Source: Polynucleobacter necessarius
GTDB taxonomy: Bacteria > Pseudomonadota > Gammaproteobacteria > Burkholderiales > Burkholderiaceae
NCBI RefSeq assembly: GCF_900095215.1
Contig: NZ_LT606949.1
Coordinates: 837,860 to 901,859 of the forward strand
Length of the DNA stretch: 64,000 bases
Direction of reading: 5' to 3'
Part shown: positions 5,206 to 47,948 of the stretch, piece after piece
How the letters are laid out: every line of letters begins with the position of its first letter
Position numbering within the stretch: position 1 is the stretch's first letter
Notes under the pieces: model-generated
What the model was told of the DNA's origin: nothing
The model's database searches: none
The model's input: the letters and a program-made list of their open reading frames with translations, nothing else
Translations under genes and position numbers: made by a program

Positions 5206-6092
5206 ATATGCCTCATTCTCTTTTCCTGGCACTCCCATCCAGACTACTCATTGGTAATTTGCGGCGAATCGTGATGAGTTTTATGAACGCGATACCGATG
5301 GGGTTGCATGGTGTCCAGAGCATCCCCATATCCTTGCTGTCAGAGATCGCGCAGATGTTTTAGGAAGTCCTGGTACTTGGCTTGGATTTACCAAGACCGG
5401 TAAATTCGCAGCCATCACAAACATTAGGGCGCCCAGCGACAAAAATCTGGATGCCAGAACCCGCGGCGAACTATCTCTGCAGTACCTCACCGGCAAGGAT
5501 CGCCCAACTGAATTTATTCAAAGTCATTCAAAACGCTTTCAGCTGTACAACGGATTTAATTTGCTAATGGCAGATCTGAGTGATCCCGCCAATGCTGAAA
5601 TGCATTGGGTGATTAATCCCATGATGATGGGGCAAAGAATTCGTCCACGCAAGGTATTCCCAGCAAGCCTTAGAGCCGGGCGTATATGGTTTATCTAATG
5701 CGATGTTCGATACCCAATGGCCCAAGGTCAATCACCGCGTAGCTGCATTCGCCCAAGCTTTAGCAATGGCCCAAGGTCAACTCAAAAATGCTGATCAGTA
5801 TTTGAAGTTATTGGCCGATACACATCATGCTAGCGATCATGAGTTGCCAAATATCGGAGTAAGCAAAGATTGGGAAAAGGCGCTTTCCCATGCCTTTATC
5901 AAAACTCCTGCTTACGGCACGCGTTCAAGCACAGTTCTCAGAATACGGAAAGATGGTCAATTTGAATTGGTTGAACGTCGCTTTGATGCCTCTGGCACCG
6001 TCGGTCATGATGTAGTGACGGGCGCACTTAGCCCTTCATCCGACTCTAATTTGTCGGTGTATAAGCTTATTCAGCACGACCGTCGTCGTTAA
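5206..6092 (+). pseudogene. NRDE/TANGO2-family protein, broken
   Basis: Pieces of a TANGO2-like (NRDE domain) protein are spread over different frames. The family N-terminus CLILFSWHSHPDY begins at 5209, but the codon before it is ATA where ATG is expected. An extra G near 5263 moves the hallmark ANRDEFY into another frame. A further shift near 5650-5670 precedes the C-terminal part (about 5671-6092, QALEPGVYGLSNAMFD to the stop). At least two frameshifts plus a missing start make a product unlikely. The normal role of the family is poorly defined (haem handling has been proposed). Its 3' end overlaps that of the convergent thioesterase relic by 26 bases. Confidence 0.85.
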
Positions 6093-6548
6093 TAACGCGC
6101 TCACCATCAGCTCCTCGAGTTGCTAAGCGCTTCAAGTACTGAAATGTCCCTGTAGCCATGCAACAGATTTCACCTTGGTCGTTGTAAAGCTTAGCCTCAC
6201 AAAAGGCCATTGTTGCAGTTCTGCGTACAGTATCCGCTTTAACTCGCAGCACACCGGCGCAGCTTGCATGAAATTATTTTTCATCTCAATAGTCACCACA
6301 CTACGGTCGCCGGGATCACTAGACCTGGCGGCAACAGCCATGACTACATCCATTAGTGTTAGTAGAACTCCCCCGTGAGCAACTTCCCAGGTGTTGTTAT
6401 TCTCAGGTTTAAGAGCGAGCAAAATTTCACCCTTCCCCATTTCAGCGCTTCAACAACGTACACCCAGCAGCTTTAAAAAAGGAACATTTAATTCCTCCCC
6501 TAAATTGGCCAATTGGGTCTGTGGATTAATTTGGACTTGTTTATTCAT
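6067..6548 (-). pseudogene. PaaI-type hotdog thioesterase, broken
   Basis: The remains match a PaaI/YdiI-like acyl-CoA thioesterase of about 160 residues. The ATG at 6548 starts MNKQVQINPQTQLANLG. An in-frame TGA about 32 codons later interrupts it, and the frame then continues as MGKGEILLALKPENN and the hotdog core HGGVLLTLMDVVMAVAAR. Near 6250 a frameshift moves the end (VKADTVRRTATMAFCEAKL to the stop) into another frame. Both defects would prevent a full product. The conserved HGG and the Asp of LMD, used in catalysis and fold, are still readable, so decay seems recent. Confidence 0.85.
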
Positions 6549-6603
6549 AGGGTAATTTTAGGGTCATGCACACAGTTTGGTAAATCCCCATAGAATAGAT
6601 CAC

Positions 6604-45349: not shown

Positions 45350-46267
45350 TTACCTTTGCCCAACTTGCACATTGCCGAATACCGCCTGCGCCTCCCGTGG
45401 CAAGCAACGCCAGTAACGTGCATTCGCGGTTACCGTGCCTTGCAAGGATGCAGCAGCTTCCCAGGCCCAACGTGGCTTATATAAGAAGGCTCTTGCCAAT
45501 GTGATTAAATCCGCGGCGCCCGCCTGCAAAATTGCTTCCGCTTGCTCGGGCTCGGTAATTAAACCCACCGTCATCGTTGGCAAACCCGATTCCTCTTTCA
45601 CAATTTTTGCAAATGGCACTTGATAGTTCGGGCCAATAGCAATTTTCTGTGGTGGCGCAATCCCGCACGAAGAGATATGCACAAAATCACAGCCCATGGT
45701 CTTCAGGCATTTAGCGAAATCTGCAGTTTCAGACGGTGTCCAACCGCCCTAAATCCAATCGCTAGCTGAAATTCGGATACCAAGCACGCCTGCATAAGCC
45801 GCGCTTACTGCGGCGAATAACTACAACGGAAAACGAATTCGATTTTCAAATGTACCGCCATATTCATCAGTGCGTTTGTTGGCGATCGGTGATAAAAATT
45901 GATGCAATAAATAGCCGTGAGCCGCTAGATGCTTTGCGACCAGCATGGGCTAGCTGGATAAATACAGGCATTGCTGGAGCCAAAGCACGCGCACGGCTCA
46001 ACTTATCTTTTAAGGCTGCTTCCGTACGGTCATCCCATAACCATAAGCAAGCTGGCGTAATTCGGGCTTCTGGACTAACGCCCGTAGCTTCGACAATGAA
46101 TAAGGCAGCCCCACTATTTAGCAAATTACCCCAGTGCATGAGGTGCCAGTCTGTCGCCTCGCGATTATTGGCCGAATATTGGCAATTGGGGCGATCACAA
46201 TTCGATTAGCCAAAGCCAATGGGCAACGGGGTGAGTTAAGCGTGTAACTGGAAAACAAAAGACTCAT
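45350..46267 (-). pseudogene. Old yellow enzyme-type NADH:flavin oxidoreductase, broken
   Basis: A YqjM/xenobiotic-reductase-like protein. It starts at ATG 46267 (MSLLFSSYTLNSPRCPLALANRIVIAPI) and frameshifts after about 30 codons. It resumes with MHWGNLLNSGAALFIVEATGV and [12 protein letters not shown]. An internal deletion of roughly 80 codons near 45930 then joins it out of frame to [22 protein letters not shown] codons follow twice where Glu is expected (FPL-stop-LFAAV, DWI-stop-GGW). The end (GCDFVHISSCGIAPPQKIAIG to VGQR) is clear. About 390 residues would be expected; the protein is inactive. Confidence 0.9.
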
Positions 46268-46429
46268 GGAATGCCTTAAAAAGCCTAAAAAATTGATCAA
46301 ATATACGAAAATTGCCGTAAAACGATAGAATACTTAAAAAGCAGAATAAACGAGACAGCCAAGTCGTGCAGACCATACGGTTGGGCGACTTTTTATTAAA
46401 AACTTTACAAATACCCACTACAAGAGACT

Positions 46430-47948
46430 ATAAACGCACCTCGAGCCTTTGAATCAAAAGAAGATATTGGCCACTTTGTTTGCGGCAATGTAGTTAAAAA
46501 AAGACGGACGTTTTGGGGACGTGTACAACCCAGCCAAGGGGGCTGTTGCTCGCCGTGTTGCCTTAGCTAGCCGCAAGGAGGTATACGCGGCAGTCGCTGT
46601 CGCGCAAAAAGCATTTGAAACATGGAGCCAAACAAGCCCCCTGCGTCGTTCACGAATTCTATTTAAGTATTTAGAGCTCTTAAACGCCAATCGCGATGAA
46701 TTGGCAGCCATCATTACAGCTGAGCACGGCAAAGTATTTACCGATGCTCAAGGCGAAGTTACCCGCGGAATTGAAATTGTGGAATTTGCCACAGGCATTC
46801 CAGAATTACTCAAAGGCGACTACACAGCACAAGTCTCTACCGATATCGATAATTGGGTCATGCAACAACCATTAGGTGTAGTCGCTGGCATCACCCCATT
46901 TAACTTCCTAGTAATGGTTCCGATGTGGATGTTCCCTATGGCTATCGCTTGTGGCAACACATGCATTCTGAAGCTGAGCCCAACAGATCCTTCAGCTTCC
47001 TTGTTTATGGCTAGACTGCTTAAAGAAGCAGGTCTTCCTGAGGGCGTATTCAATGTGGTTCAAGGCGATAAAGAGGCTGTTGATGCCTTAATTGAAGACC
47101 CAGACATCAAAGCGGTCAGCTTTGTAGGCTCTACGCCGATCGCGAATTACATTTACGAACGCTGCGCCCACTTTGGCAAGCGCTCACAAGTTTTGGGCGG
47201 CGCTAAGAATCACATGGTGATCATGCCTGATGCAGATATCGATAAAGCAAGTGACGCCTTGGTTGGTGCCGCATATGGCTCTGCTGGTGAGCGCTGCATG
47301 GCAATCTCCGTAGCGGTATTGGTTGGTGATGTTGCCGAGAAAATTATGCCTAAACTCATTGAGCGCACTAAAACGCTGAAGGTGAAGAATGGCATGGAGC
47401 TTGATGCGGAGATGGGCCTTATCGTTACCAAAGCAGCCCTTGAACGTATTACCGGCTACATTGACAGTGGCGTAGCCTCTGGCGCTACGGTTCTAGTTGA
47501 TGGTCGTGGACTCAAAGTTCCTGGCAACGAAAATGGCTTCTTCATTGGCGGCACACTCTTTAACAATGTAACGCCGGATATGAAGATTTATTTAGAAGAA
47601 ATTTTTTGGCCAGTTTTATCCTGCCTGCGTGTCGCGAACTTTACAGATGCGCTGCATTTGGTCAACTCTTGCGAGTTTGGTAATGGTGTAGCGTGCTTTA
47701 CTAGCGATGGCAATATTGCCTGTGAATTTGCGCGTCGCGTGCAAGTTGGCATGGTTGGCATTAACGTACCTATTCCAGTTCCAATGGCTTTGCATGGTTT
47801 TGGCGGCTGGAAGAAATCTATCTTTGGCAATATGCATGCATACGGCAAAGAAGGTGTTCGTTTCTACACCAAGCAAAAGAGCGTGATGCAACGCTGGCCA
47901 GAGAGTATTGCCAATGGTGCTGAGTTTGTGATGCCTACTTCTAAGTAA
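46430..47948 (+). pseudogene. mmsA: Methylmalonate-semialdehyde dehydrogenase, N-terminus broken
   Basis: From 46521 a 475-codon frame matches MmsA, which turns methylmalonate semialdehyde into propionyl-CoA in valine and inositol breakdown. The catalytic Cys is in [14 protein letters not shown], and the NAD site in [18 protein letters not shown]. Upstream, [11 protein letters not shown] continues in another frame. A run of seven A residues at 46496-46502 is one too many: six would give [17 protein letters not shown]. The expected ATG reads ATA (46430-46432). The conserved Gly in EEIFGPVL is Trp. A GTG at 46521 could start a shortened protein, but it would lack part of the N-terminus. Called damaged rather than certainly dead. 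Confidence 0.7.

Follow-up and report, generated by a model that had tools for sequence, protein, structure and literature searches.

A stretch of 64,000 nucleotides from the genome of Polynucleobacter necessarius (NZ_LT606949.1, positions 837860–901859; here called the window) contains 18 recognisable gene relics between its positions 5,206 and 47,948, together with the site of one deleted gene, beside 39 genes scored as intact. Very probably the window is typical of a Polynucleobacter genome that has entered the earliest phase of reductive evolution following a shift in life style; confinement to a ciliate host is the most likely such shift. The decay is real but of a known kind, and its general picture is already published for the genus. 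The gain lies in replication and timing, not in kind: the genome is seen just after many genes escaped selection, intact outgroups and replicate lineages are at hand, and a defined gene list becomes available for comparison across several independent cases of different age. An earlier sequence-only reading of the window had counted about eighteen recognisable pseudogenes beside intact housekeeping genes; alignment of gene models from the close relative G053 recovers them, at the clusters first claimed.

Relics and intact genes in the window

The genome is a single contig of 1,703,354 bases with a completeness of 99.94%. It falls within Polynucleobacter, nested among undamaged lineages, and the genus assignment made at first sight is supported: the nearest genus members reach at most 85% DNA identity in carB (150 other genomes sampled) and in nuoG (185 sampled), CarB is 96% identical to that of the named isolate Polynucleobacter sp. 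15G-AUS-farblos (L003), and a tree of nuo genes places the genome in the genus. The window aligns nearly end to end with several relatives (63.4 of 64 kb with G053). Collinear stretches were compared from nine relatives without visible decay (G053, G099, G144, G096, G080, G024, G091, G004 and G002) and from the decayed G017; those of G080, G002, G091 and G004 cover the window only in part. Gene models were taken from G053 and retained if matched in at least three of nine other genomes, which gave 77 models. These were aligned to the window, and the alignments were walked codon by codon for frameshifts, stops, 5′ loss and large deletions. Openness, the longest single-frame stop-free match, was also scored in nine relatives (G099, G144, G096, G080, G024, G091, G004, G002 and G172).

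Every relic is open in six to nine of these nine, that is, in all those whose stretch covers it; relatives whose stretch does not reach a relic are left uncounted, and of the TonB receptor G002 covers no more than the 3′ part. Intact single-frame orthologues are therefore found at each relic position, as the sequence-only reading had expected, and the observation it had named as fatal, the same lesions in free-living relatives, does not occur in the undamaged relatives aligned. L003 has full-length prpE and pump adaptor genes, and its pump permease is open to the end of the locus.

All 40 lesions fall in the relics (18 genes, 22,407 nt) and none in the 39 intact genes (37,470 nt), a distribution with a random probability of ∼10^-17. 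The intact-scored genes are free of frameshifts. Two of them contain a stop, at codon 5 of #121 and codon 6 of #125, both within N-terminal extensions of the G053 models that carry stops in three of nine and two of seven other genomes, respectively.

Relics cluster moderately. Among 58 genes, 19 of them broken or lost, 17 runs are counted versus 26.6 expected (P = 0.004), and without the 48–64 kb block 16 runs versus 21.8 (P = 0.046). This test leaves out #3, #69, #155, #192, #40 and #147 (small or overlapping, with uncertain starts), #8 and three accessory genes; mmsA (#52), with a 5′ lesion and a score of 0.95, was added to the broken list by hand. The map drawn beforehand holds for its intact blocks at 0.5–5.2, 20.4–31.6, 33.8–37.3 and 48–64 kb. 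Its relic clusters are less continuous than described, broken up by intact genes: msrB and ispZ at 8.0–9.0 kb, a DUF2069 gene at 14.5–14.9 kb and dnaQ at 41.4–42.1 kb.

Age of the decay

Changes found only in the window were compared between codon positions 1+2 and position 3, at sites where the undamaged relatives agree. The ratio is 0.237 in the relics, a value that includes two poorly aligned genes, and 0.158 in the intact genes. The corresponding relic and intact values are 0.108 and 0.096 in G096, 0.095 and 0.079 in G144, 0.082 and 0.076 in G024, and 0.058 and 0.075 in G080; in the decayed G017 they are 0.610 and 0.177. The comparison of non-synonymous and synonymous change proposed by the sequence-only reading thus gives only a slight excess, consistent with young decay. 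In the window the intact genes, too, have a ratio above that of the intact genes in the four undamaged relatives, which weaker selection would be expected to produce.

A maximum-likelihood fit to 13 of the 18 relics (without #4, #37, #48, #145 and #179) and 38 intact genes, with the tree held fixed, puts the relic excess at ∼1% of the terminal branch of the window; 12 gene bootstraps range from −0.6 to 2.4%. This dating is rough, with fourfold-site branches of 0.7–1.0, near saturation, and badly aligned stretches filtered out. By this estimate the relic genes were under selection for nearly all of the terminal branch; inactivation takes up roughly 1% of the path from the split with the nearest sampled relatives. 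The youth claimed for it on the grounds of readable relics is upheld.

Extent across the genome and life style

Decay extends well beyond the window. In the 340 kb upstream, compared with 400 kb of G053, the open reading frames (ORFs) of at least 150 aa comprise 159 intact, 91 broken, 17 absent and 7 poorly matched. The broken share is 91 of the 250 long ORFs still present (36%), by comparison with one reference and with 19 of the 91 at 0.70–0.85 of full length. Coding density (ORFs of at least 100 aa) is 0.85 in the window and 0.83 on average in 19 other 20-kb samples (range 0.66–0.94), compared with 0.91–0.95 in the nine undamaged relatives. From these densities and counts the window is typical of its genome and no hot spot of decay. 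Many pseudogenes thus lie across the genome beside intact core genes, with 18 relics and 39 intact genes inside the window and 91 of 250 broken outside. The genome is also smaller, at 1.70 Mb versus 1.87–2.23 Mb in the undamaged relatives.

Genes still needed (complex I, carAB, ftsH, aroC, dnaQ and glmM) are intact, and frameshifts, stops and deletions accumulated in other genes once the lineage had diverged from its undamaged relatives; at least five other Polynucleobacter genomes, which form no common group, show similar loss. Selection may have lapsed because a host supplies these functions or makes them unnecessary; the lesions would have been fixed by drift in a small population confined to the host, and larger deletions would later clear the relics.

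Published systems give close parallels. STIR1, a symbiont of Euplotes aediculatus (Boscaro et al. 2013, as described in PMC4285135 and PMC5632650), is credited in PMC4285135 with 231–460 pseudogenes and with gene loss without mobile elements, and its translesion DNA polymerase gene is reported lost. Symbionts of the P. necessarius type inhabit the cytoplasm of Euplotes and are unable to multiply outside this host. The present genome resembles STIR1 in genus, GC content (∼45%), reduced size, many recognisable pseudogenes and relatives with intact genes; it differs in being larger (1.70 versus 1.56 Mb) and in being known here from sequence alone. PMC11253213 describes several independent origins of Polynucleobacter symbionts, reduced size, and drift as the main force, and P. 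necessarius is called a recent symbiont in PMC5632650. Further afield, Serratia symbiotica and Sodalis pierantonius SOPE are young insect symbionts with many pseudogenes (PMC4285135), similar in their recent mass inactivation and still readable relics. The same review states that mobile elements inactivated genes in the Serratia cases, unlike in the window, which is collinear with G053; the alignment to G053 reveals no insert of insertion-sequence size in the window, a genome-wide search for mobile elements not having been made. The sequence-only reading had proposed early obligate symbiosis. The genome fits that stage closely as it is published for Polynucleobacter, with no host seen in the sequence data.

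Several observations weigh against this reading. Coding densities overlap, the decayed G023 (0.90) lying close to the undamaged G080 (0.91). Small size by itself is not diagnostic, since G160 has only 1.67 Mb with open prpE and mmsA. Isolated lesions occur elsewhere, as in G038 (2.1 Mb), where prpE is split and the pump, amidase and mmsA are intact. The distribution of lesions is judged from assembled sequence rather than raw reads. Finally, the labels ‘symbiont’ and ‘free-living’ of the genomes compared are both inferred.

Some of these points would fit a planktonic strain living free of any host, its genome streamlined or subject to ordinary gene turnover. Free-living Polynucleobacter are themselves small-genomed, according to PMC4285135; single genes are split in G038 and G116; and G160 is as small without the lesions tested. 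Compact streamlined genomes, however, are unlike one in which 36% of long ORFs are broken in place and coding density is 0.83–0.85, and the nine undamaged relatives have none of the 39 shared genes broken. Turnover without a host is therefore improbable, and reductive evolution after restriction to a host remains the preferred explanation.

Parallel decay in the genus

A search with the prpE product returns some homologue in all 186 genus genomes. Among 16 genomes re-examined, prpE is in pieces in G000 (the genome of the window), G017, G023, G103 and G157. A single split is seen in both G038 and G116, a full-length match with one internal stop in both G032 and G175, and in G041 the gene runs up to a contig edge. 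Of the 39 shared genes of the 20.4–64 kb part of the window, 9 are broken in the window (mmsA counted by hand), 10 in G017, 9 in G023, 12 in G103 and 11 in G157, compared with none in each of nine undamaged relatives.

Five genes are damaged in all five of these decayed genomes: prpE, the MdtBC-like pump, the amidase, the TctC receptor and MmsA. This far exceeds the 0.05 all-shared losses expected when drawing from all 39 genes, but is little above the 2.8 expected from the 14 genes ever broken (P = 0.057; #40 and #147 were retained in this count). The overlap among decayed genomes is thus only marginally above chance within the dispensable pool.

A sixth decayed genome, G158, has a broken TonB receptor, folP, pump adaptor, tartrate dehydrogenase, amidase, NamA-like gene and mmsA, with prpE, the pump permease and TctC still open; its nuo genes, cut by the end of the stretch, were left out of this judgement. 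With these seven genes broken, G158 is a very young case of the same decay. Its genome (1.71 Mb) lies ∼0.04 substitutions per site from that of its sister G036 (1.92 Mb). In G107 the RND permease is spread over several frames and only distant amidase homologues are found; in G116 prpE is split near its 3′ end, other RND copies are in pieces and there is no near amidase. G107, G116 and G038 possibly represent early decay or single losses. A side observation concerns folP (21800–22678), which is intact in the window and broken in G023, G103, G157 and G158; this pattern suggests that decayed lineages have lost folate synthesis repeatedly.

A tree from nine nuo genes (12,222 columns, 35 genomes) does not group the decayed genomes G000, G017, G023, G103, G157 and G158. 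The genome of the window stands beside G053, G099, G172, G080 and G144. G157 pairs with G002 (support 100), G017 with G137 (97) and G158 with G036 (100); G103 joins the G157/G002 pair (91), and the pairing of G023 with G113 is weak (67). It may be that symbiont-like decay began at least six times separately, perhaps eight with G107 and G116, and strikes a predictable first set of genes (prpE, MdtBC-like pump, amidase, TctC and mmsA, as in the first five lineages compared); taken as a whole this is a tentative proposal that we hold to be rather unlikely. If true, replicated snapshots could reveal in which order genes are lost early after restriction to a host.

The lesions themselves bear on whether one ancient decay event was instead inherited by a clade of decayed genomes. 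The five universally damaged genes favour such an event, as do four sites at which the window and one other decayed genome coincide: a +2 at nt 830 of SelO, a +1 at nt 58 of the YihY-family gene, a −1 at nt 882 of the pump adaptor and the stop at codon 105 of the hydrolase. G103 moreover groups with G157 and G002, and its separateness from G157 depends on G002 being undamaged. However, the decayed genomes form no clade, and most lesions differ in place and size; outside these sites, no lesion of the window recurs in the four decayed genomes compared. Two of the four shared positions even differ in their letters (the inserted bases in SelO; TAG versus TAA in the hydrolase). The four sites are best read as recurrent hits, because undamaged genomes stand in between, and a single inherited event is very unlikely in comparison with repeated independent decay.

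Sequencing or assembly error hardly deserves credence: many lesions are indeed 1-nt insertions or deletions (indels), some within short homopolymer runs as indel-prone reads or a poor assembly would give, but error is unlikely because the lesions avoid 37 kb of intact genes in an assembly of such completeness, and tandem duplications of 2, 5 and 7 nt, deletions of 74, 87, 203 and ∼900 nt and substitution stops are atypical of read errors, and other Polynucleobacter assemblies have many of these genes broken as well.

The losses in the independently derived Euplotes symbionts of Polynucleobacter described by Boscaro et al. in 2017 are reportedly lineage-specific. The present set resembles theirs in repeated separate origins beside free-living lineages and in parallel gene loss; it differs in the five genes damaged in five of five genomes, an excess little above chance in the dispensable pool. 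That symbiont set, to which the genome of the window may itself belong, is cited in PMC11253213 and PMC9837558.

Functions of the lost genes can be named from the families of the intact G053 versions, and their sorting into classes is our own judgement. Five of the 18 relics belong to transport or efflux (MFS transporter, TonB receptor, RND adaptor, RND permease and TctC). About seven are of catabolic type (prpE, tartrate dehydrogenase, amidase, MmsA, NamA-like oxidoreductase, alpha/beta hydrolase and hotdog thioesterase), and six fit neither class (TANGO2-family, SelO, PPIase, YihY/BrkB-family protein, WrbA and SprT-like). The suggestion that transport, efflux and catabolism lose selection first is not established, with a third of the relics in neither class and the overlap between genomes near chance within the dispensable pool.

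Mutation pattern and mismatch repair

Inactivation proceeds by small indels, stops and deletions of up to ∼0.9–1.4 kb. Multiple alignments of the relics from five decayed genomes contain 113 private insertions and 48 private deletions of up to 12 nt, with insertion to deletion counts of 25:14 in the window, 5:12 in G017, 9:1 in G023, 47:9 in G103 and 27:12 in G157. Many of the insertions are exact tandem copies, namely 23 of the 30 of two nt, 4 of the 5 of five nt and all 3 of seven nt. When frameshifting indels are counted again pairwise, a procedure with alignment noise (15 events even in the undamaged G096), insertions number 138 and deletions 84, with 30 and 23 of them in the window. The apparent excess of insertions does not hold up in the genome of the window, as 340 kb more of that genome yield 56 frameshifting insertions versus 68 deletions. 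Intergenic spacers of seven undamaged relatives, taken as a control, have 10 insertions and 6 deletions of up to 12 nt, too small a sample. In the relics of G023, G103 and G157, frameshifting indels lean to insertion (13:4, 46:25 and 33:18), often as short tandem duplications.

Searches for mutS give no match in 12 of 12 Polynucleobacter genomes, decayed or not, including that of the window. For mutL, none of the 12 has a match over the cut-off, and weak partial matches occur in G053 only. This agrees with the report in PMC5644125 of cluster PnecC genomes without mutS and mutL, and the absence is not specific to symbionts. Since decayed and undamaged genomes alike lack matches, mismatch repair was very likely lost before the decay set in.

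Relics and neighbouring genes in order

The first cluster of relics opens with a TANGO2-family gene (5206–6064, + strand; 285 aa in G053) with two frameshifts and a 2-nt insertion at the stop codon. It is followed by a hotdog-fold thioesterase (6067–6548, −; one frameshift, one stop) and SelO of the protein adenylyltransferase family (6604–7993, +), which has an 87-nt deletion, three frameshifts and a stop. Beyond the intact island of msrB and ispZ/septation protein A (8023–9014, +) lie a probable PpiC-type PPIase relic (9308–10104, +; 35-nt deletion at the 5′ end) and an MFS transporter similar to 3-phenylpropionate transporters (10114–11263, −; five frameshifts). The PPIase and mmsA are the two weak relic calls: each has only a 5′ lesion and still matches in a single frame, the PPIase over 86% and mmsA over 95% of its length.

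After the intact aroC (chorismate synthase) and CBS-domain protein genes (11277–12891, −) come a YihY/BrkB-family inner membrane protein (12971–13845, −; five frameshifts) and a WrbA-like NAD(P)H:quinone oxidoreductase (13847–14472, +; two frameshifts, +1 and +7). The deleted gene encoded a GlcD-like FAD oxidase of 471 aa in G053; at its site (14867–15035, no strand) ∼1.4 kb of G053 are missing. The alpha/beta hydrolase (15305–16204, −) is disabled by its in-frame stop at codon 105 only. ORF #8 (17.77–18.27 kb) overlaps a tRNA gene and was dropped as spurious. The TonB-dependent receptor of ZnuD/heme type (18326–20434, +) has at least two frameshifts and one stop.

An intact block (20439–31642, −) comprises glmM, folP, ftsH, rlmE, yhbY (on the + strand), greA, carB and carA. 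The prpE relic (propionate-CoA ligase; 31878–33771, −) has four frameshifts and one stop. Its family match lies above both cut-offs for propionate-CoA ligase and below that of TIGR02188 (acetate-CoA ligase), and an acsA label for it (#183) was rejected on these grounds. The next intact block (33799–37325, no strand) contains an mltD-like transglycosylase, gloB, a methyltransferase and rnhA.

The last cluster begins with the RND pump. Its MdtA-like periplasmic adaptor (37441–38354, +) has lost its first third and has a frameshift; the MdtBC-like permease (38345–41378, +; 1,032 aa in G053) has four frameshifts, a stop and a 74-nt deletion near the 3′ end. The intact dnaQ (Pol III epsilon; 41381–42091, +) separates the pump from a tartrate dehydrogenase relic (42097–42819, −) with two stops, whose 5′ third is gone in a deletion of ∼0.9 kb. 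On the far side of this deletion remain the first 50 codons of a SprT-like gene of 220 aa (42812–42961, −). Then follow the amidase (43039–44335, +; two frameshifts and two stops, one near the 3′ end), the TctC-family periplasmic receptor (44344–45320, −; a single +2 frameshift), the old-yellow-enzyme (NamA-like) oxidoreductase (45350–46419, −; 203-nt deletion, frameshift, two stops) and the probable relic of mmsA (methylmalonate-semialdehyde dehydrogenase; 46430–47948, +), with a −2 frameshift at nt 69 and an internal GTG start at 46521. The remainder (48014–63801, −) is an intact block of two small genes and the nuo genes of complex I, with NuoN, M, L, H, G, F and D checked by family.

Three G053 genes absent at 20.4 kb of the window were rejected as losses, being absent too from five of nine undamaged relatives, including near ones. 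This three-gene insert of G053 (at window position 20436) is an accessory island, partly broken in G023 and G157.

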